A program made the translations under genes and the position numbers. Shown one piece after another: positions 42,947 to 52,100 of a DNA stretch of 64,000 bases; position 1 is the stretch's first letter; each line of letters begins with the position of its first letter. The stretch comes from Hylemonella sp. (GTDB lineage: Bacteria > Pseudomonadota > Gammaproteobacteria > Burkholderiales > Burkholderiaceae_C). The stretch covers positions 868,001-932,000 of the forward strand of contig NZ_JAPZSV010000003.1 in assembly GCF_027532185.1 (NCBI RefSeq), written 5' to 3'. The notes under the pieces were generated by a model that was not told the DNA's origin, did not search any database, and saw only the letters and a program-made list of their open reading frames with translations.

Positions 42947-43525
42947 TCACCGATCTTGGTTCGAGTCCAAAATATCCAGCAACTGTTTAAATGCTCGCAC
43001 TGCCCGGTTGTGATTAGCAACTGTGTAATCGGTAGAGAGCCATTCGGTCTCATCGAGTTGAAACAGGTGCATCTTGTTTCGAATACCCCATAACCAGTTC
43101 AGGTCGGTCGCTAGCTCGGACGAGATTATTGAGTGCTCTCTCATGTGATCAATCCTCTTGCTGTAGCTCCCACCACATCTACCGCGAAGCAAAACTTTAG
43201 TAATGCTTTCAACGATGCTACCGAGCAAGAATAATTGCAGCTTGATGATCATCTCTTTGGCTGTACCCGATAAGTCGGTTCTTGCTAGCAGCCAATGCTG
43301 CACGTCTGACAGCATCATGGTGTATGCAATGTTGCTTCGCAAGTTCCGATCGTCGACGAAACCCAATCGATCTCTAGCCTGTGCTGCCGTACGCAAGTAG
43401 CCTCTTGGAAAGCGTACTTTTGCAGGCTTAGTGAAGTCTCGCCCCACATACTCTTGTATTTCTTGGAGTAATGCCCCGGCTGTGATCACTGCGTTCGCGA
43501 GCTGCTCATCGTTTGTAATCGCCAT
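42947..43525 (-). CDS. Hypothetical helical protein, AT-richer than neighbours
   Basis: 192 residues, MAITNDEQLANAVITAGALL, ending LLDILDSNQDR. Mostly helical with no signal peptide. A segment LWGIRNKMHLFQLDETEW carries an RNxxH pattern that superficially resembles HEPN-type ribonuclease motifs, though the spacing (R-x3-H) does not match the classical Rx4-6H. Codon use and GC content stand apart from ybeY and dtd on either side. It is an orphan, convergent with ybeY. A transferred gene of unknown function; a toxin or phage-defence role is only a guess. Confidence 0.65.
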   Translation of the reverse strand: MAITNDEQLANAVITAGALLQEIQEYVGRDFTKPAKVRFPRGYLRTAAQARDRLGFVDDRNLRSNIAYTMMLSDVQHWLLARTDLSGTAKEMIIKLQLFLLGSIVESITKVLLRGRCGGSYSKRIDHMREHSIISSELATDLNWLWGIRNKMHLFQLDETEWLSTDYTVANHNRAVRAFKQLLDILDSNQDR

Positions 43526-44032: not shown

Positions 44033-44482
44033 TCAGCGCAGCTTGGCGCGCGCCTGCTCCAGGCGCTGGTCCAGGTAGGCGCCGTAGAAATCGGGCAAGG
44101 AGCCGCCGACCAGGCGCTCGGCCAGCTCCTCGCCCTTGGGGCCGAGGAAGAGCACGGTGGGCGCGACGGTGATGCGGCGCGCGCGCACGAACTCGTCGTG
44201 CACGATGTTGCTGCCATCCACGTCCTTGAGCTGGCGGCGGCCGCGCATGTCGACCTGCACCACGGGCAGGCCTTGCTGCTGGTGCAGGGGCGCGAGGTAG
44301 TGGTCGCGCACGATATGGCAGTAGGCGCAGCCGTCGAGGCTGACCATCACGACCAGGGGCTGGTGGCGTGCGAGGGCAACGTCCAGCTCGCGCCGCAGGT
44401 CCAGCGCACGCGGCAGCGTGGCCGCACGGCCCATCAGCGGCAGGGTGGCGGCCAGCAACAGGGTGCGACGCGCGATCGTCAT
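44033..44482 (-). CDS. Exported thioredoxin-like protein of the sulfur cluster
   Basis: 149 residues. MTIARRTLLLAATLPLMGRA is an arginine-pair signal, probably Tat or Sec. The mature thioredoxin fold has VSLDGCAYCHIVRDHYLAPL (CxxC) and the cis-Pro motif TVAPTVLFL. It resembles SoxW-like periplasmic thioredoxins that keep sulfur-oxidation proteins reduced. Its start overlaps the stop of the SoxH-like MBL gene (ATGA), and both lie divergent from the transporter gene, so they belong to the sulfur cluster. Confidence 0.8.
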   Translation of the reverse strand: MTIARRTLLLAATLPLMGRAATLPRALDLRRELDVALARHQPLVVMVSLDGCAYCHIVRDHYLAPLHQQQGLPVVQVDMRGRRQLKDVDGSNIVHDEFVRARRITVAPTVLFLGPKGEELAERLVGGSLPDFYGAYLDQRLEQARAKLR

Positions 44483-45438
44483 TTGCCGGCTTCCTGCTCC
44501 ATGAGCAGATAGGTGTTGTAGGCGTTCATGCGGTTGGCGACGCGGAACAGGGGCAGGTGCTCGAAGGCGCTCCAGTCGGTAGCCTGGTAGGCCTCGTCGA
44601 AGGGCTCGAGGTTGGCGGCGGCCTGGCCCATGCTCTTGCGCAGGTAGACCAGGTAATCGCGCGTGAGCTGCATGTCCTGGCGCGCCTGCTGCGAGAGCGG
44701 GCCGTGGCCGGGCACGACGACGGTGGCGTCGAAGGACAGCAGGCGATCAAGCGCGACGATCCAGTGCCGGCTGTCGGCCTGGCCCACATAGGGGATGCGG
44801 CTGCGGAACACCAGGTCACCGGCAAACAGCACCTTCTCCGAGGGCAGATAGACCACGAGGTCTTCGGGCGTGTGCGCGGGGCCGACGGCGCGGATCTCGA
44901 AGCGCACACCGCCCACGGTCAGGTCGCGGTCGCCAGCCAGCCACTCATCAGCCTGGATCAGGCGCGTGTCCTCGTCGATCCAGGGCGCAAGCTCGGTGCG
45001 CGAGGCCTGCAGGCGCAGCTGCGCGGTGTCTGAGTTCAGGTAGAGCCGCGCAGCCTGGTGCGCGAGCACGCGCACGCCGCGCGCGCGGAAGGTCTGCAGA
45101 CCGTAGATGTGGTCGGCGTGGTAGTGCGTGACGATGAGGTGGGTCACGGGCAAGGGCGTGAGGCGCGCGATCTGCGCCAGCAGGCGCTCGGCCAGCGCGG
45201 GCGAGCCCAGCGCGTCGATCACCACCACACCCGCGGGCGTGATCACGAAGCCGGCGTTGGAGATGAAGTTCTGGTTGGCCGGCGAGCCCAAGGCCGAGAC
45301 ACCCTCGACGTACCAGGCGCTGGGCGCGACCTGCTGCGCCACCATGGGCGGCTCGCTGCCCGCGTGAACGACGCCGCAACACAGAGCCAGCGCAGCGCAG
45401 GCGCGGCGGGCAAGGGATGGCAGGTGCAAGGTGTTCAT
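44479..45438 (-). CDS. Exported metallo-beta-lactamase-fold hydrolase (SoxH-like)
   Basis: 319 residues from ATG at 45436-45438 (MNTLHLPSLARRACAALALC), with a signal peptide ending near VVHAG. The canonical metal motif is intact (LIVTHYHADHIYGL), with AVGPAHTPEDLVVYL, VLFAGDLVFRSRIP and VVVPGHGPLSQQ. The order of blocks resembles SoxH and quinoprotein-relay-type zinc hydrolases found in sulfur-oxidation clusters. Its substrate is unknown; a sulfur-bearing thioester or glutathione persulfide is possible. It is translationally coupled to the thioredoxin-like gene. Confidence 0.85.
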   Translation of the reverse strand: MNTLHLPSLARRACAALALCCGVVHAGSEPPMVAQQVAPSAWYVEGVSALGSPANQNFISNAGFVITPAGVVVIDALGSPALAERLLAQIARLTPLPVTHLIVTHYHADHIYGLQTFRARGVRVLAHQAARLYLNSDTAQLRLQASRTELAPWIDEDTRLIQADEWLAGDRDLTVGGVRFEIRAVGPAHTPEDLVVYLPSEKVLFAGDLVFRSRIPYVGQADSRHWIVALDRLLSFDATVVVPGHGPLSQQARQDMQLTRDYLVYLRKSMGQAAANLEPFDEAYQATDWSAFEHLPLFRVANRMNAYNTYLLMEQEAGK

Positions 45439-45482
45439 CAAGGACGGGCCTGTTTGAGCCAGATCAAGCCGGCCAGACGGCA

Positions 45483-45514
45483 TTAACTTAGTATATAAGC
45501 AAATAGTAAATTAA
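45483..45514. promoter_or_regulatory. AT-rich imperfect dyad in the divergent sulfur-cluster promoter
   Basis: Arms TTAACTTAGT (45483-45492) and AGTAAATTAA (45505-45514) are inverted with 8 of 10 matching positions. The dyad sits 5 bases upstream of the YeeE ATG, in the 81-base gap to the divergent MBL gene. An ArsR-family repressor is encoded in the cluster, and such repressors bind AT-rich dyads over promoters, so this is its likely operator. Confidence 0.5.
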
Positions 45515-45519
45515 CAGCC

Positions 45520-46623
45520 ATGGACCTCGCCTCCCTCATCGAGCGCTACGGCAGCGGCCACTTGCTGGCCGTGGCCGGGCTGGGCATCGGCCTGCTGTTC
45601 GGCTTCTTGGCGCAACGCTCGCGCTTCTGCCTGCGCGCGGCCACGCTGGAGTTCTGGCACCGGCAGTTCGGCGAGAAGCTCGCGGTCTGGCTGCTGGCGT
45701 TTTCGAGTGCGGTGGTAGCGGTGCAGGCCCTGATTCTGCTGCACGCGCTGGACGTGAGCACGGCGCGCCAACTCGCCACGCGCGGCAGCCTCTCGGGCGC
45801 CATCATCGGCGGTCTGCTCTTCGGCGCCGGCATGGTGATGACGCGCGGCTGCGCGAGCCGCCTGCTCGTGCTCTCGGCCAACGGCAATCTGCGCGCCCTG
45901 CTCTCGGGCCTGATCTTCGCGGTCACGGCCCAGGCCGCCCTCGGCGGCGTACTGGCCCCACTGCGGCATGCCATCAGCGGCTGGTGGACGGTCGAAGGCG
46001 GCACGGCGCGTGACCTGCTGGCGCTCACGCACCTGGGCCACGCCGGTGGGCTGGCCGTGGGACTGGTCTGGTTCGCCGCGGCCTTGTACTTTGCGCTGCG
46101 CAGCGACCGCAGCCTCTGGAAATGGGTGGGTGGCATGGGCACGGGCCTGGCCGTGGCCGCAGGCTGGTGGGCGACACACCTGATCGGCTCGCAGAGCTTC
46201 GACACGGTACAGGTGCAGGGCTTGACCTTCAGCGGCCCCTCGGCCGAGTGGCTGATGCGCGTGCTGGCCTCGCCCACGCCACCCCTAGGCTTCGACTTCG
46301 GGCTGCTGCCCGGCGTGTTCGCGGGCTCGCTGCTGGGCGCCCTGCTGGGTCGCGACTTCAAGCTTGAAGGTTTCAAGGACGGCTACAGCATGCGCCGCTA
46401 CATCGCGGGCGCCATGCTCATGGGTTTTGGCTCCATGCTGGCCGGTGGCTGCGCCGTGGGTGCGGGCATGACGGGCGGTGCGATCTTCGCGCTCACGGCC
46501 TGGCTGGCGCTGCTGGGCATGTGGGCCGGTGCGGGCCTGACGGACCGTCTGCTCGATGCCGATGCACAGCCTGCGCCTGCACAGCGCGTGGCACAGACCG
46601 CGGCCACCATGCAGGCCCCGTGA
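45520..46623 (+). CDS. YeeE/YedE family sulfur-compound transporter (TsuA-like)
   Basis: 367-residue polytopic inner-membrane protein. The family imports thiosulfate or other sulfur species via conserved cysteines. Those cysteines are visible in QRSRFCLRAATLEFW, MVMTRGCASRLLVLSANG and GSMLAGGCAVGAGMTGGAIF. Its place between SoxH-like and fccAB genes supports a role in moving or storing reduced sulfur. Which sulfur species is carried cannot be told. Confidence 0.88.
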   Translation: MDLASLIERYGSGHLLAVAGLGIGLLFGFLAQRSRFCLRAATLEFWHRQFGEKLAVWLLAFSSAVVAVQALILLHALDVSTARQLATRGSLSGAIIGGLLFGAGMVMTRGCASRLLVLSANGNLRALLSGLIFAVTAQAALGGVLAPLRHAISGWWTVEGGTARDLLALTHLGHAGGLAVGLVWFAAALYFALRSDRSLWKWVGGMGTGLAVAAGWWATHLIGSQSFDTVQVQGLTFSGPSAEWLMRVLASPTPPLGFDFGLLPGVFAGSLLGALLGRDFKLEGFKDGYSMRRYIAGAMLMGFGSMLAGGCAVGAGMTGGAIFALTAWLALLGMWAGAGLTDRLLDADAQPAPAQRVAQTAATMQAP

Positions 46624-46737
46624 ACGTCTGCGCCGCTGAGGCGCTAACATCGTGCGGGTAAACACCGGCGACAGGAAATCAGTCGATCTCTATATTCGTC
46701 TCTGGTGATATTTATGCAACCTCGCAGGAGACTTCCG

Positions 46738-47055
46738 ATGCGCCTCAAAACTTCACTCGCCGCGCTGCTGCTCGGCGGCCTGGCTGCCACCCCTGTCCTG
46801 GCCCAAGATGCCGCCCGCCTGCACCAGCGTGCCCTGGCCGCCACCTGTGCCAACTGCCACGGCACCGACGGTCGCACGGTGCCGGGCTCGGCCGTGCCCT
46901 CGCTGGCCGGCATGCCTAAGGACTACATGATCCAGCAGATGAAGGCCTTCCAGAACGGCACGCGTCCCGCCACCGTGATGCACCAGCTGGCCAAGGGCCT
47001 GACGGACGAGCAGATCGAGTCCACCGCCGCCTATTTCTCCACCCTCAAGCGCTGA
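46738..47055 (+). CDS. fccA: Monoheme cytochrome c subunit of flavocytochrome c sulfide dehydrogenase
   Basis: 105 residues with signal peptide MRLKTSLAALLLGGLAATPV...AQ. A single heme site CANCH has Cys37, Cys40 and His41, then the class I pattern GTDGRTVPGSAVPSLAGMPK. Positioned 13 bases before the FccB flavoprotein gene, it is its electron acceptor, passing electrons to the respiratory chain. ATG at 46738 follows AGGAG at 46727-46731; the upstream in-frame ATG would add residues without signal character. Confidence 0.88.
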   Translation: MRLKTSLAALLLGGLAATPVLAQDAARLHQRALAATCANCHGTDGRTVPGSAVPSLAGMPKDYMIQQMKAFQNGTRPATVMHQLAKGLTDEQIESTAAYFSTLKR

Positions 47056-47068
47056 AGGAGACCTGACC

Positions 47069-48352
47069 ATGAAACGCCGCAATTTTGTCCAGGCCTCGCT
47101 CGCGCTCGGCTCGCTCTCTTCCCTCTCGCTCGTGGGCTGCGCCACCACGGCACCGATTCCCGCCAAGGCCAAGGTCGTCGTGATCGGCGGCGGCTACGGC
47201 GGCGCCACGGCCGCCAAGTACGTGCGCATGCTCTCCAACTACCAGATCGACGTGGTGCTGGTCGAGCCCAACGACAACTTCATCTCCTGCCCGATCTCCA
47301 ACCTCGTGATCGGCGGCAGCAAGACCATGGGCGACATCACCACGCCCTATGACAAGCTGCGCAGCAACCATGGCGTGATCCATGCGCGCGACATGGCCAG
47401 CCGGATCGACGCGACCAAGAAGACCGTCACGCTGGCCGGTGGCGCCACCATCGCCTACGACAAGCTCATCCTCTCGCCCGGCGTGGACATGATGTGGAAC
47501 AGCATCGAGGGGCTAAAGGAGGCCAGTGCCGCGGGCCAGATCCTGCAGGCCTGGAAGGCCGGCGCCGAGACCGTGGCGCTGCGCAAGCAGCTCGAGGCCA
47601 TGCCCGACGGCGGTGTCTACGCCATCGCCGTGCCGCTGGCGCCCTACCGCTGCCCGCCCGGCCCCTACGAGCGCGCCAGCCAGGTGGCCAGCTACTTCAA
47701 GAAGGCCAAGCCCAAGTCCAAGGTGCTGATCCTCGACGCCAACCCGGACGTGACCTCCAAGGGCCCGCTGTTCAAGAAGTTCTGGGCCGAGAACTACGCC
47801 GGCATACTGGAGTTCCGCGGCAACCACAAGGCCATCGCCGTCGACGCGCGCACGAAGACCGTGAAGTTCGAGACCGCCGACGACGTGAAGGCCGATGTGC
47901 TCAACGTGCTGCCGAACATGAGCGCGGGCACCATCGCCATGCAGACCGGCCTGGCCAATGCCAACGCACGCTGGTGCAATGTGGACTACCAGACCTTCGA
48001 GTCAACGGCGGCCAAGGACATCCACGTGATCGGCGACTCGGTGCTCGCCGCGCCGTTGATGCCCAAGTCTGGTCACATGGCCAACTCGCACGGCAAGGTG
48101 GCCGCCGCGGCCGTGGTGGCCCAGCTCTCGGGCCTGCCGGTCAACCCGCAACCGCTGCTGACCAACACCTGCTACAGCTTTGTCAACGACAAGCTCGTGG
48201 TGCACGTCGCCTCGGTCCACCAGTACGTGGCCGCCGAGAAGACCTACAAGACCGTGCCCGGCTCGGGCGGCGTCTCGACGGCGCCGAACGAGCTCGAAGG
48301 CGTGTACGCCATGAACTGGGCGCAGAACATCTGGGCCGACTCGCTGCTCTGA
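47069..48352 (+). CDS. fccB: Flavoprotein subunit of flavocytochrome c sulfide dehydrogenase
   Basis: 427 residues. Oxidises sulfide in the periplasm to sulfur or polysulfide. N-terminus MKRRNFVQASLALGSLSSLS has a twin-arginine pair; LVGC at 21-24 also matches a lipobox, so a Tat-exported lipoprotein is possible. FAD fingerprint KVVVIGGGYGGATAAKYV, redox-active cysteines in FISCPISNLVIGG and PYRCPPGPYERAS, and the FCSD C-terminal domain (NTCYSFVNDKLVVHVASV) are all present. Directly follows fccA. Confidence 0.92.
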   Translation: MKRRNFVQASLALGSLSSLSLVGCATTAPIPAKAKVVVIGGGYGGATAAKYVRMLSNYQIDVVLVEPNDNFISCPISNLVIGGSKTMGDITTPYDKLRSNHGVIHARDMASRIDATKKTVTLAGGATIAYDKLILSPGVDMMWNSIEGLKEASAAGQILQAWKAGAETVALRKQLEAMPDGGVYAIAVPLAPYRCPPGPYERASQVASYFKKAKPKSKVLILDANPDVTSKGPLFKKFWAENYAGILEFRGNHKAIAVDARTKTVKFETADDVKADVLNVLPNMSAGTIAMQTGLANANARWCNVDYQTFESTAAKDIHVIGDSVLAAPLMPKSGHMANSHGKVAAAAVVAQLSGLPVNPQPLLTNTCYSFVNDKLVVHVASVHQYVAAEKTYKTVPGSGGVSTAPNELEGVYAMNWAQNIWADSLL

Positions 48353-48359
48353 CCCCGCT

Positions 48360-48381
48360 GGGCCGGCGCATGCGCCGGCCC
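48360..48381 (+). terminator. Perfect 22-bp palindrome between fccB and dsrE-like gene
   Basis: GGGCCGGCGCA/TGCGCCGGCCC is a perfect inverted repeat that begins 7 bases after the fccB stop, followed by a T/C-rich tract (TTCCTCTTTCTTTC). It resembles an intrinsic terminator or attenuator, so the downstream gene may be expressed at lower level than fccAB. Confidence 0.65.
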
Positions 48382-48408
48382 TTCCTCTTTCTTTCCGGAA
48401 CACCCCGC

Positions 48409-48840
48409 ATGTACAAGATCCTGGCCACCCTGGCCCTCACCCTCTTCTCGCTGCTGAGCCCCCCCGTGCACGCACAGGCCACGCCGCAGGTCAAGGCGGT
48501 CTACCACGTCAACACCGACGTCAACACGGTGGCGGCCATCCTCAACAACATCCGCAACCACCTCAATGCGGCCCCCAAAGACAAGATCGTGGTGGTCACG
48601 CACGGCCCCGGCATCAACTTCCTGCTGCAGGACGCCAAGGACAGCCAAGGCCGCGAATTCAGCGGCGCCGTCTCGGACCTCAGCAACAAGGGCGTGGAGT
48701 TCCGCGTCTGCAACAACACGCTGACGGTGCGCAACATCAGCGCCGACAAGCTGCTGATGGAAGCCAAGATCGTGCCCTCGGGCGTGGCCGAGGTGGCCCG
48801 TCTGCAGGCCCAGGAGGGGTTCGTCTACCTCAAGCCCTGA
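48409..48840 (+). CDS. Exported DsrE/DsrF-like protein
   Basis: 143 residues with signal peptide (MYKILATLALTLFSLLSPPV...HAQA). The mature DsrE-like fold has VKAVYHVNTDVNTVAAILNN, KIVVVTHGPGINFLLQDAKD and a conserved cysteine in VEFRVCNNTLTVRN. Such proteins carry sulfur on cysteine. It lies after fccAB and a strong hairpin, and is likely part of the sulfide-oxidation transcript, handling sulfur atoms released in the periplasm. Confidence 0.85.
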   Translation: MYKILATLALTLFSLLSPPVHAQATPQVKAVYHVNTDVNTVAAILNNIRNHLNAAPKDKIVVVTHGPGINFLLQDAKDSQGREFSGAVSDLSNKGVEFRVCNNTLTVRNISADKLLMEAKIVPSGVAEVARLQAQEGFVYLKP

Positions 48841-48862
48841 GCGCATACGCCGCGCCATGCAC

Positions 48863-48891
48863 AAGGGGCCTCGCGAGGCCCCTTTGCTTTT
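48863..48891 (+). terminator. Intrinsic terminator of the fcc operon
   Basis: A perfect 22-bp palindrome AAGGGGCCTCG/CGAGGCCCCTT (48863-48884) is followed by TTTGCTTTT, 23 bases after the dsrE-like stop. It lies between that gene and the convergent regulator gene and may serve both. Confidence 0.88.
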
Positions 48892-48910
48892 GCGCTGTGC
48901 GGCCGGCGTT

Positions 48911-49291
48911 TCAGGCGGCGCGGTGCGAGATGGCGGCGCTGTCTTGCACGGGCTGGTAATTGGCGTCGGTGGCGATCTGGGTGCACACGGCACGGCAGAG
49001 CGCAGCCACACGGTCGTCGACGATGCGGTAATAGATCTGCACGCCTTCGCGGCGTTTGCCCAGCACGCCGGCCTGATACAGCGTGGTGAGATGCTGCGAC
49101 ATATTGGGCTGGGTGGTGTCGATCTTGCTCAGCAGGTAGCTGACGTTGCGCTCGCCATCGCAGAGATGGCTGATGATCTTCAGACGCATGGGTGCCGACA
49201 TGACGCGAAACACTTCCGCTGCCAGCTCGAACACCTGGTCCGGCTCGGTGACAGCCGGGGCCGGGGTCGTCTGCATGGAACGTTTGCTCAT
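48911..49291 (-). CDS. ArsR-family repressor of the sulfur cluster (BigR/SqrR-like)
   Basis: 126 residues. Winged helix: FRVMSAPMRLKIISHLCDGE, TTQPNMSQHLTTLYQAGVLG (recognition helix) and KRREGVQIYYRIVDDRV. Three cysteines stand out: Cys44 (LCDGE), Cys99 and Cys103 (LCRAVC). Cys44 plus a C-terminal cysteine is the arrangement used by SqrR/BigR persulfide sensors, which form a tetrasulfide bridge and release DNA; the classical metal-binding CxC in the recognition helix is absent. It is convergent with the fcc operon and most likely controls it. Sensor role is inferred. Confidence 0.87.
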   Translation of the reverse strand: MSKRSMQTTPAPAVTEPDQVFELAAEVFRVMSAPMRLKIISHLCDGERNVSYLLSKIDTTQPNMSQHLTTLYQAGVLGKRREGVQIYYRIVDDRVAALCRAVCTQIATDANYQPVQDSAAISHRAA

Positions 49292-49345: not shown

Positions 49346-50971
49346 TCAGCTGCCTTTGCTGCGCAAGGTGCGGCTGAGCAACAGCACAGGGATCAAACCC
49401 ACCAGCACCAGCGCCAGCGCGGGCAGCGCGGCCTCGCCCAGGCGTTCGTCACGTGCCAGCTGGTAGGCGACCACCGCCAGGGTGTCGCTGTCGAAGGGAC
49501 GCAGCACCAGGGTGGCGGGCAGCTCCTTCATCACGTCCACGAAGACCAGCAACGTGGCCGCCATGACCGGGCGGCGCAGCAGTGGCCAGTGCACACGGCT
49601 CAGCACCCCCCAGCCGCCGCTGCCCAGCAGGCGCGCGCTGTCGTCCAGATTGACCGGAATGCGCGCGTAGCCGCTCTGCACCGACTGCAGGGCCACGGCC
49701 ACGAAACGCACCAGGTAGGCCCAGACCAGGCCCAGCGAGGTGGCCGTGACCCAGTAGGCCGGCCCGGCCTGGGGCCAGCGCGCCTGCACCCAGCCCACGG
49801 GCAGCAGCAGGCCCACGACCACAACCGCGCCCGGCACGGCGTAGCCCAGACTGGCGAGCCAGACCACGGCGCGCGTGAGCGCATCAGGCAGGCGGCGCAA
49901 GGCATAGGCCAGCAGCAGGGCCAGGGCCACGGCCAACCCAGCAGCCAGCAGGCCCAGGCGCACGCTGTTGCCGGCCCAGCCCCAGAAGCGTTCCCAGGGC
50001 AGCCCGGCCGATTCACCGACGAGTGGGCGCAGCATGAAGAGCACGGGCGCGACGAAGCCCATGAGGATGGGCAAGGCACACACAGCCCAGGCCGCAAGCC
50101 GCTGCCGCCCCTGCAGTCGCACGGGCTGAGCTTCGGCGCCGGCCGCACGGCCCAGGCGCGCGCTGACAAAACGCAGACGGGCGCGCGAGCGATGCTCCAG
50201 CCACAACAGCAGGGCGACAAAACCCAGCAGCAGCGTGGCCAGCTGGGCGGCGGCGATGCGGTTGTCCATGGCCAGCCAGGCCTTGTAGATGCCCGCGGTG
50301 AAGGTCTGGATGCCGAAGTAGCTGGCCACACCGAAATCGGCCAGGGTCTCCATGAGCGCCAGGGCCACGCCCGCGGCCACGGCCGGGCGCGCCAGCGGCA
50401 GCGCCACCTCGCGGATGCGGCGTGCCAGCGGCGCGCCCAGCAGGCGGGCCGCTTCCATCAGGTGCGCGGCCCGTTCGGCCAGCGCAGCGCGCGTGAGCAG
50501 GTAGACGTAGGGGTAGAGCGTGAAGGTCATGACCCAGGCGGCACCGCCCGTGTTGCGCACTTCGGGAAAGACGCGTCCTTCCCAACCGGCGCTCGCACGC
50601 AGCCAGGTCTGCAGCGGACCGCTGTATTGCAGGAAGTCGGTGTAGGCATAGGCCACCACATAGGCTGGCATGGCCAGCGGCAGCAGCAGCGCCCATTCAA
50701 AGTAGCGCCGGCCCGGGAAATCGAACAGGGTCACGGCCGCGGCCGTGGACAGGCCCACGACCGTCACCCCCACGGTTACCAGCAGGCAAAGCCAGAGGGT
50801 GGTGCCCAGATAGTCCGGCAGCACGGTGGCCCCCATCTCGCGCAGGATGGCCAGCGCTTCGGCGCCAGCCGGGCCACCCGGCCACCAGGCGCCCAGCAGG
50901 GCCAGCACCGGCAGCATCAGGGCCACGGTGAAGATCAGCAGCAGGAAATGGCGGAAGCGGGTCGGGGGCAT
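49346..50971 (-). CDS. ABC transporter permease, Fe(III) type (FbpB/SfuB-like)
   Basis: 541 residues with about twelve membrane helices in two BPD_transp halves, as in fused FbpB-type permeases. The cytoplasmic EAA-like loops include HLMEAARLLGAPLARRIREV and NLDDSARLLGSGGWGVLSRV. Start is ATG at 50969-50971. The ATPase gene is divergent 65 bases away. No substrate-binding protein gene is in the window, so the iron assignment rests on family resemblance. Confidence 0.88.
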   Translation of the reverse strand: MPPTRFRHFLLLIFTVALMLPVLALLGAWWPGGPAGAEALAILREMGATVLPDYLGTTLWLCLLVTVGVTVVGLSTAAAVTLFDFPGRRYFEWALLLPLAMPAYVVAYAYTDFLQYSGPLQTWLRASAGWEGRVFPEVRNTGGAAWVMTFTLYPYVYLLTRAALAERAAHLMEAARLLGAPLARRIREVALPLARPAVAAGVALALMETLADFGVASYFGIQTFTAGIYKAWLAMDNRIAAAQLATLLLGFVALLLWLEHRSRARLRFVSARLGRAAGAEAQPVRLQGRQRLAAWAVCALPILMGFVAPVLFMLRPLVGESAGLPWERFWGWAGNSVRLGLLAAGLAVALALLLAYALRRLPDALTRAVVWLASLGYAVPGAVVVVGLLLPVGWVQARWPQAGPAYWVTATSLGLVWAYLVRFVAVALQSVQSGYARIPVNLDDSARLLGSGGWGVLSRVHWPLLRRPVMAATLLVFVDVMKELPATLVLRPFDSDTLAVVAYQLARDERLGEAALPALALVLVGLIPVLLLSRTLRSKGS

Positions 50972-50996
50972 GAACGGACCGGGGACGGAATGAGAA

Positions 50997-51012
50997 TTGT
51001 AAGTACCTACAA
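50997..51012. promoter_or_regulatory. Near-perfect dyad in the divergent ABC-transporter promoter
   Basis: TTGTAAGTACCTACAA is a 16-base palindrome with one mismatched pair, centred in the 64-base gap between permease and ATPase starts. Its place suits an operator controlling both genes. It is not a good match to the classical Fur box, though the preceding GAGAATTG is Fur-like in tone. Confidence 0.45.
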
Positions 51013-51035
51013 TATGGACGCTCCGATACCCGTCC

Positions 51036-52100
51036 ATGTACCTCGAAGTCCGCCAACTCCAAGTCCGCTACCCCGGCGCCGCCCAGGCCGCCGTGGCCGA
51101 TGTCTCCCTGGGCCTGCGCGCGGGCGACATCGGCGTGCTGATCGGCCCCTCGGGCTGCGGCAAGACCACGCTGCTGCGTGCCGTGGCCGGGCTGGAGCCT
51201 GTGAGCAGCGGCGAGATCCGGCTCGCGGGCCAGGTGGTCGGCAGTGCTGACACGCAGACGCCGCCCGAGGCACGCCGCATCGGCATGGTGTTCCAGGACT
51301 ACGCGCTGTTTCCGCACCTGGACGTGGGCCGCAACGTGGGCTTCGGCATCCACCAGTTGCCGCGCGCCGAGCGCGAGGCCCGCGTGCGCGAGGTGCTGGC
51401 CCTGGTCGGCTTGCAAGGCAGCGAGGCGCGCTACCCGCATGAACTCTCGGGTGGGCAGCAGCAGCGTGTGGCGCTGGCGCGCGCACTGGCGCCGCGCCCG
51501 CAGTTGCTGCTGCTCGATGAACCCTTTTCCAACCTCGATGTGGAGCTGCGCGAGCGCCTGGCGCACGAGGTGCGCAACATCCTCAAGGCCGCGCAGGCCA
51601 CGGCGCTCTTCGTCACGCACGACCAGCTGGAAGCCTTTGCCATCGGCGACACCATCGGCGTCATGCACGAAGGCCGGCTGCACCAGTGGGACGAGGCCTA
51701 CACGCTCTACCACCGCCCGGCCACACGCTTCGTGGCCGACTTCATCGGCCACGGTGTGTTCGCGCCCGCTACGCTGAAGGAACGCGAGGGCCAGCTCGTG
51801 GTGCAGACGCCGCTGGGCGAGCTCCGCGACATGGCCGAGTGCCCGCTGCCCACGGCCTTCTGCAACGGCGAGTGCGACGTGCTGCTGCGCGCCGACGACA
51901 TCGTGCACGACGATAACGCCCCCGTGAAGGCCGAGATCATCCGCAAGGCCTTCCGCGGCTCGGAGTTTCTCTACACCCTGCGCCTGGCCGGCGGCCAGAC
52001 CGTGCTGGCCCATGTGCCCAGCCACCACGATCACAAACTCGGCGAATGGATCGGCATCCGGCCCGAGGTCGACCACGTGGTGACCTTCGAGCGTCGCTGA
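51036..52100 (+). CDS. ABC transporter ATP-binding protein, Fe(III) type (FbpC-like)
   Basis: 354 residues. Walker A GPSGCGKTTLLRAVAG, Q-loop MVFQDYALFPHLDVG, signature ELSGGQQQRVALARAL, Walker B LLLLDEPFSNLD and H-loop LFVTHDQLEAFAIGD, followed by a C-terminal TOBE-like domain (about residues 240-354). The pattern with a divergent fused permease fits ferric-ion or similar solute import. A convergent acyltransferase gene begins 16 bases after the stop. Confidence 0.92.
   Translation: MYLEVRQLQVRYPGAAQAAVADVSLGLRAGDIGVLIGPSGCGKTTLLRAVAGLEPVSSGEIRLAGQVVGSADTQTPPEARRIGMVFQDYALFPHLDVGRNVGFGIHQLPRAEREARVREVLALVGLQGSEARYPHELSGGQQQRVALARALAPRPQLLLLDEPFSNLDVELRERLAHEVRNILKAAQATALFVTHDQLEAFAIGDTIGVMHEGRLHQWDEAYTLYHRPATRFVADFIGHGVFAPATLKEREGQLVVQTPLGELRDMAECPLPTAFCNGECDVLLRADDIVHDDNAPVKAEIIRKAFRGSEFLYTLRLAGGQTVLAHVPSHHDHKLGEWIGIRPEVDHVVTFERR

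Follow-up and report, generated by a model that had tools for sequence, protein, structure and literature searches.

The 64,000-nucleotide stretch of Hylemonella sp. DNA analysed here (the window) carries, at positions 44033-49291, a compact module of seven genes that encode a thioredoxin-like protein, a metallo-beta-lactamase-fold hydrolase, a YeeE/YedE-family transporter, the two subunits of a flavocytochrome c sulfide dehydrogenase (FccA and FccB), a DsrE-like protein and an ArsR-family regulator. We propose, with a probability of about 0.75, that this module forms one half of a sulfur-oxidation regulon under the control of ArsR, the half that oxidises sulfide and handles signalling, and that the soxCDYZAXB cluster 45.6 kb upstream is the other. 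The proposal draws on the gene content of the module, the linked sox cluster, the co-occurrence of both in relatives, a site common to the fccA and soxC promoters and the conserved cysteines of ArsR. The original prediction had placed the same seven genes here and described them as a stand-alone sulfide detoxification or lithotrophic unit without soxXYZABCD genes. Searches with Pfam and NCBIfam profiles located all seven and agree with their labels overall, and the stand-alone reading is here corrected to that of a split regulon with a testable predicted operator.

The absence of sox genes holds for the window, in which the seven Sox proteins of the same genome found no tblastn match (E up to 1e-3), but not for the genome. 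The genes soxB, X, A, Z, Y, D and C occupy positions 859,574-866,447 of the same contig (C11), on the minus strand, and the window starts at C11:868001; because the cluster sits just outside, the apparent lack of sox is a window-edge effect. SoxB, X, A, Z, Y and C exceed their NCBIfam cut-offs, with a single SoxB above cut-off in the genome (C11:859604-861298), while SoxD was named from gene position and two CxxCH motifs only; with that qualification the genome encodes the complete SoxAXBYZCD system in the Kelly-Friedrich sense. The distance of 45.6 kb is that from the 5' end of soxC to the first gene of the module. A full sox cluster elsewhere is what the original prediction had named as an argument against itself, and its presence rules out a stand-alone fcc unit in the sense of a genome lacking the sox core. 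Adjoining soxC, outside the window, are genes for a CsoR-family (PF02583) regulator with two cysteines and for a small cytochrome c-like protein (C11:866962-867276; L084:18962-19276), and the former may be a further regulator of sox that responds to sulfur.

In order to place the module among its relatives, we used the best 80 of 516 places related to FccB, mainly from Comamonadaceae (Curvibacter, Polaromonas, Limnohabitans, Rhodoferax), with up to 8 kb of flanking sequence per locus. Row and locus counts throughout (alignments, sites, ArsR places) are not independent, since they include near relatives and probably identical genomes (e.g. G012 and L022). The module is often intact and adjoins sox genes in several relatives, lying directly beside soxCDYZAXB in L023 and L026, which goes against a stand-alone unit. 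At least one of soxA, soxB, soxC and soxY falls within the flank at 16 of 80 loci, and soxC or soxB at 11 of the 44 that bear ArsR. YeeE accompanies ArsR: among the 54 loci with enough flank it is present in 30/32 with ArsR and 1/22 without, a contrast confounded by phylogeny.

We also surveyed 150 genomes of the family, each at least 90% complete, with thresholds of at least 101 bits for ArsR orthologues and at least 406 bits for fccB. ArsR orthologues are found in 72 genomes, 68 of them with SoxB; for fccB the figures are 96 genomes and 74 with SoxB. The two genes lie within 6 kb of each other in 25 genomes, and all 25 encode SoxB, whereas in the whole sample 85 of 150 do; the fccB/ArsR module and SoxB share a contig in 21 of these 25 genomes, 1.3-55 kb apart. 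Since SoxB above cut-off is absent from 22 of the 96 fccB genomes, FccAB as such can occur without Sox, but fccB with this neighbouring ArsR never does so in this sample. The original prediction took the module for a self-contained detoxification or lithotrophy unit, with YeeE salvaging the sulfur of FccAB. The 22 genomes speak for such a unit, as do the compactness of the module and its own regulator and transporter, but they are set against sox in the same genome, SoxB in 25/25 genomes with the gene pair, the tendency of YeeE to follow ArsR and a promoter site that fccA has in common with soxC. We regard this explanation as very improbable.

That site, TATATT-N9-TGATAT, was found by eye in a comparison of the fccA and soxC upstream regions of this genome. 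An enumeration of exact palindromes across promoters had yielded no common operator; the pattern was spotted later and then tested. Allowing one mismatch, it occurs at three places in the 3.3-Mb genome, all of them exact (soxC, fccA and a LysR-type gene), and the reversed pattern at none. At the same stringency it is present in 17/43 fccA and 4/11 soxC upstream regions of relatives, where shuffled sequences gave means of 0.02 and 0.01. A position weight matrix (PWM) built from the relatives' sites, excluding the window, L003 and L004, ranked the fccA site first in 98 kb and the soxC site second (31.8 bits), while ten Markov sequences peaked at 16.3 bits. With up to two mismatches, fccA carries the site at 21/29 loci that have ArsR in the arrangement of the window versus 3/31 of those in which no ArsR was detected (L007, L019 and L030; the sequence of L019 ends just past fccB). 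Further, ArsR genes linked to sox in G002, G023 and G137 are preceded, at a distance of 39-47 bp, by sites with one mismatch, the arsR-soxC intergenic region bears the site in L023 (one mismatch) and L026 (two), and 14 genomes with the module contain 30 matches versus 5 for the reversed pattern. An operator-like site shared by the fccA and soxC promoters fits poorly with a unit that stands alone. The LysR-type gene (family judged by eye) has its copy at C13:96785-96805 (L169:6785-6805), which scores 24.8 bits in a stretch fetched for its match and is probably unrelated. We found no prior publication of the operator, or of the ArsR clade discussed below, in the open literature searched, judged mostly from titles and abstract openings.

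Several observations weigh against a single ArsR regulon. The exact matches at our own fccA and soxC exist by construction, because the pattern came from those two promoters, and the training sites of the matrix were chosen with the same pattern. The third exact copy in the genome belongs to the LysR-type gene, many of the 30 matches were counted without a check of where they lie, and two of the 14 genomes, G001 and G110, contain no match. At up to one mismatch the site is missing upstream of the module's arsR and yeeE (0/43 and 0/36); 14 Limnohabitans-type loci with ArsR have no site at fccA, and L016, L017, L058 and L082 have none at soxC, in a comparison that left out L035 because of an error at its contig edge. 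Conversely, L050, with no ArsR in its flank, bears a soxC site with two mismatches. The fccB genomes without SoxB and the CsoR-family regulator next to the sox core point the same way, and both ArsR-DNA binding and regulon-wide control of expression are predictions read from sequence.

Alternatively, the common site could be that of a different regulator, for instance the CsoR-family protein encoded next to soxC, which would leave ArsR to govern only the fcc module or itself. The position of the PF02583 regulator gene and the small cytochrome gene next to soxC and the soxC site of L050 are in keeping with this, and in Thermus sox is under the control of a regulator of the CsoR type (PMC10318464). 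However, the fccA site tracks the presence of ArsR, the one of the two regulators that was surveyed in the relatives, and sites turn up in the arsR-soxC intergenic regions and just upstream of the sox-linked ArsR genes listed above. We consider control by another regulator unlikely, and a single regulon under ArsR remains the explanation that we prefer.

The solved proteins nearest to ArsR are members of the ArsR family, including SqrR and BigR, and its AlphaFold2 model, with a mean predicted local distance difference test (pLDDT) score of 73.5, has the winged-helix fold. In this model C44 closes helix 33-44, and C99 and C103 lie within helix 93-110. An alignment with characterised sensors rules out the canonical persulfide dithiol: the two conserved cysteines of SqrR, BigR and SoxR are absent, with Ser41 and Ala107 at the equivalents of positions 41 and 107 (SqrR numbering), and ArsR scores 66.9 bits against the NCBIfam model of BigR (cut-off 155). 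Of the 81 orthologue places one is that of the window, and we retrieved the other 80. C44, C99 and C103 occur together in 77 and are not all present in three; none of the 80 has both cysteines of the canonical pair, and two have a cysteine at 41. Loci L034 and L039 of the FccB scan carry another regulator, with the canonical pair. Relative to SqrR the cysteines are shifted by +3 and -4 residues; since each shift is about one helical turn, a relocated sulfur bridge is possible, and Cys44/Cys99/Cys103 may represent a new sulfur-sensor geometry. Three cysteines, variously placed, are also what known As(III)-sensing ArsR proteins use (PMC11868830), and the triad could bind As(III), Zn or Cu(I) in a metal or metalloid sensor. 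However, 60 of the 81 orthologue places have fccB no more than 12 kb or soxB no more than 15 kb away, 68 of the 72 genomes with ArsR have SoxB, and by their domains the seven module genes include no metal-resistance gene; a metal sensor is quite unlikely. A broader form of our proposal, which we advance tentatively and at somewhat less than even odds, is a Burkholderiaceae-wide clade of Sox/Fcc regulators that would sense sulfane sulfur through the relocated Cys44 and Cys99/Cys103, act on one AT-rich operator and receive their signal by import through YeeE and a periplasmic thioredoxin.

The features of the module are collected in the table below. The diverged site between the hydrolase gene and yeeE is not significant alone, its score falling within the null range.

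Table. Genes of the module and operator-like sites (window coordinates; scores from profile searches or the PWM)
Feature	Position	Strand	Evidence
Thioredoxin-like protein, C52-x-x-C55	44033..44482	-	PF13098 23.5 bits (below cut-off 27); both Cys in 42/42 rows including the window
Metallo-beta-lactamase-fold hydrolase, SoxH-related	44479..45483	-	PF00753 103.7 bits; H120, H122, D124, H125 in 30/30 rows
Diverged operator-like site, 36-bp hydrolase/yeeE intergenic region	45493..45513	-	3 mismatches; PWM 15.9 bits
YeeE/YedE-family (SoxT/TsuA-like) sulfur transporter	45520..46623	+	PF04143 (Sulf_transp) 176.8 bits
Operator-like site upstream of fccA, TATATTCGTCTCTGGTGATAT	46691..46711	+	1 of 3 genome places with at most 1 mismatch; PWM 35.2 bits
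fccA, monohaem cytochrome c (CANCH), leader judged by eye	46738..47055	+	PF00034 35.3 bits; haem Cys pair in 77/77 rows
fccB, flavocytochrome c sulfide dehydrogenase flavoprotein	47069..48352	+	PF21706, PF09242
DsrE/DsrF-like protein, leader judged by eye, single Cys101	48409..48840	+	PF02635 44.7 bits
ArsR-family regulator, Cys44/Cys99/Cys103	48911..49291	-	HTH_5 33.6 bits

Two of the labels are softer than had been claimed, those of the thioredoxin, below its Pfam cut-off, and of the SoxH-like hydrolase. The best NCBIfam matches of the hydrolase are two SoxH-related models, TIGR04559 (181 bits, cut-off 280) and TIGR04558 (161 bits, cut-off 300), so that by these cut-offs it does not qualify as a SoxH or quinoprotein-relay metallohydrolase. 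Judging their leaders by eye, the hydrolase is probably exported and the thioredoxin-like protein probably periplasmic. FccB has the central and flavin-binding domains of flavocytochrome c sulfide dehydrogenase (FCSD) and matches the Allochromatium enzyme 1fcd with 330 bits (E 2e-97). Its C74, C195 and C368, each conserved in 80/80 aligned rows (window counted), align with cysteines of 1fcd, those that bind flavin adenine dinucleotide (FAD) and form the redox pair, and FccA supplies the partner c-type cytochrome with its CxxCH motif. The leader of FccB (window 47069-47140) has a KRR motif resembling a twin-arginine translocation (Tat) signal in 72/80 rows by a loose pattern. A lipobox-like Cys24 follows in 74/80 rows, and given its conservation and a strict lipobox in 45/80, FccB may be a lipoprotein, that is, a membrane-anchored flavoprotein. 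In YeeE, C311 is kept in 43/43 rows and C37 and C111 in 41/43 (two gaps); with the Sulf_transp domain, these three conserved cysteines assign it to the YeeE/YedE (SoxT/TsuA) transporters, although it scores 82.9 bits against the best TsuA model, whose cut-off is 400. Elsewhere in the genome there are another YeeE-family match over the full length, with 29% identity (C4:26655-27641; L085), and two neighbouring half-length matches (C11:561188-562077; L087 and L088), one of which reads with an internal stop. The DsrE-like protein, the only DsrE-family member among the seven genes, keeps its Cys101 in 43/43 rows, and the proteins aligned with it have a leader too; its nearest solved structure is MTH1491 (1l1s, E 6.7e-15). 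Sulfide oxidation with an adjoining transporter and an ArsR regulator, as originally predicted, is thus backed by domains and conserved catalytic residues.

From these assignments we infer how the regulon could work, including binding and sensing by ArsR, sulfur transfer and the direction of transport. FccB is the only strong match found in the genome to enzymes of the FCSD and sulfide:quinone oxidoreductase (SQR) type, besides one unexamined 43.5-bit partial match on contig C8; SQR was sought with a single model, of type III, whose cut-off FccB itself does not reach. Sulfide would for this reason be oxidised periplasmically, by FccAB, to polysulfide or sulfur, with electrons passing to cytochrome c. 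The DsrE-like protein would probably carry sulfane sulfur, plausibly between FccAB and SoxYZ, and the Sox system with SoxCD would oxidise it to sulfate. YeeE and the thioredoxin would most likely serve in signalling, by bringing a small amount of sulfane sulfur into the cytoplasm. The repressor ArsR would sit on TATATT-N9-TGATAT at fccA and soxC, and sulfur modification of Cys44/Cys99/Cys103 would release it. Import of a signal is probably to be favoured over salvage, by analogy, because the three YeeE cysteines are kept, the neighbour is thioredoxin-like, YeeE tracks ArsR and SoxT1B (below) provides a precedent. We rejected YeeE as a bulk importer for cytoplasmic oxidation, as no DsrA exceeded its cut-off (one 48-bit match) in a search that did not extend to sHdr.

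Two features flank the module. A 192-aa open reading frame between ybeY and dtd (window 42947-43525) lies in a patch of low GC content, 49% versus 65-70% around it; it matched nothing in Pfam, NCBIfam or PADLOC, nor in the 80 related loci, and looks like an insertion. After the module, at 49346-52100, come the permease and ATPase genes of an ABC transporter, to judge by appearance possibly one for iron; the pair is kept beside the module in many relatives.

If our reading is true, the conserved cysteine triad of a sox-linked Burkholderiaceae clade would be a second solution for sulfane-sulfur sensing, and sulfur regulons could be predicted where the two-cysteine rule fails to detect them. Among known systems, FccAB (SoxEF) of Allochromatium resembles the module in the domains of FccB, its FAD-binding cysteine and redox cysteine pair, and the partner c-type cytochrome. 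The cytochrome subunit of the Allochromatium enzyme has two haem motifs, unlike the FccA of the module, which has one, and the FccB of the module differs by its Tat-like leader and Cys24. The DsrE-like protein shares with the DsrE-family sulfur carriers its family and one invariant cysteine, but differs in its leader peptide, in being encoded by a single gene within the module and in having MTH1491 as its nearest solved protein. Within the Comamonadaceae, Rhodoferax sediminis likewise combines sox genes with a gene for a sulfide-dehydrogenase flavoprotein, soxF (PMC7074706), although the main text of that report never mentions ArsR, YeeE or thioredoxin.

The SoxT1B-SoxS-SoxR set of Hyphomicrobium denitrificans is comparable in its YeeE-family transporter, thioredoxin-type protein and sox-tied ArsR (PMC11582611; PMC10451225). 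According to Li et al., the YeeE-like SoxT1B serves there in signalling for SoxR, and they assume the same for Alphaproteobacteria with complete Sox systems (PMC11582611). The module differs in that its ArsR lacks the two sensor cysteines, that fccAB and the DsrE-like protein are added and that no TusA is found among the seven genes. Finally, the characterised sulfane-sulfur-sensing ArsR proteins have one cysteine pair in common (PMC12423496). SqrR, BigR, SoxR and sHdrR share with the module ArsR the fold, cysteines in the helix near residue 44 and in the C-terminal helix, and sulfur-gene neighbours, but its cysteines stand at 44, 99 and 103 and not at the equivalents of 41 and 107. The enzymes of the module are ordinary; what is new is an ArsR clade linked to sox and fcc that has another set of cysteines and for which an operator is predicted.

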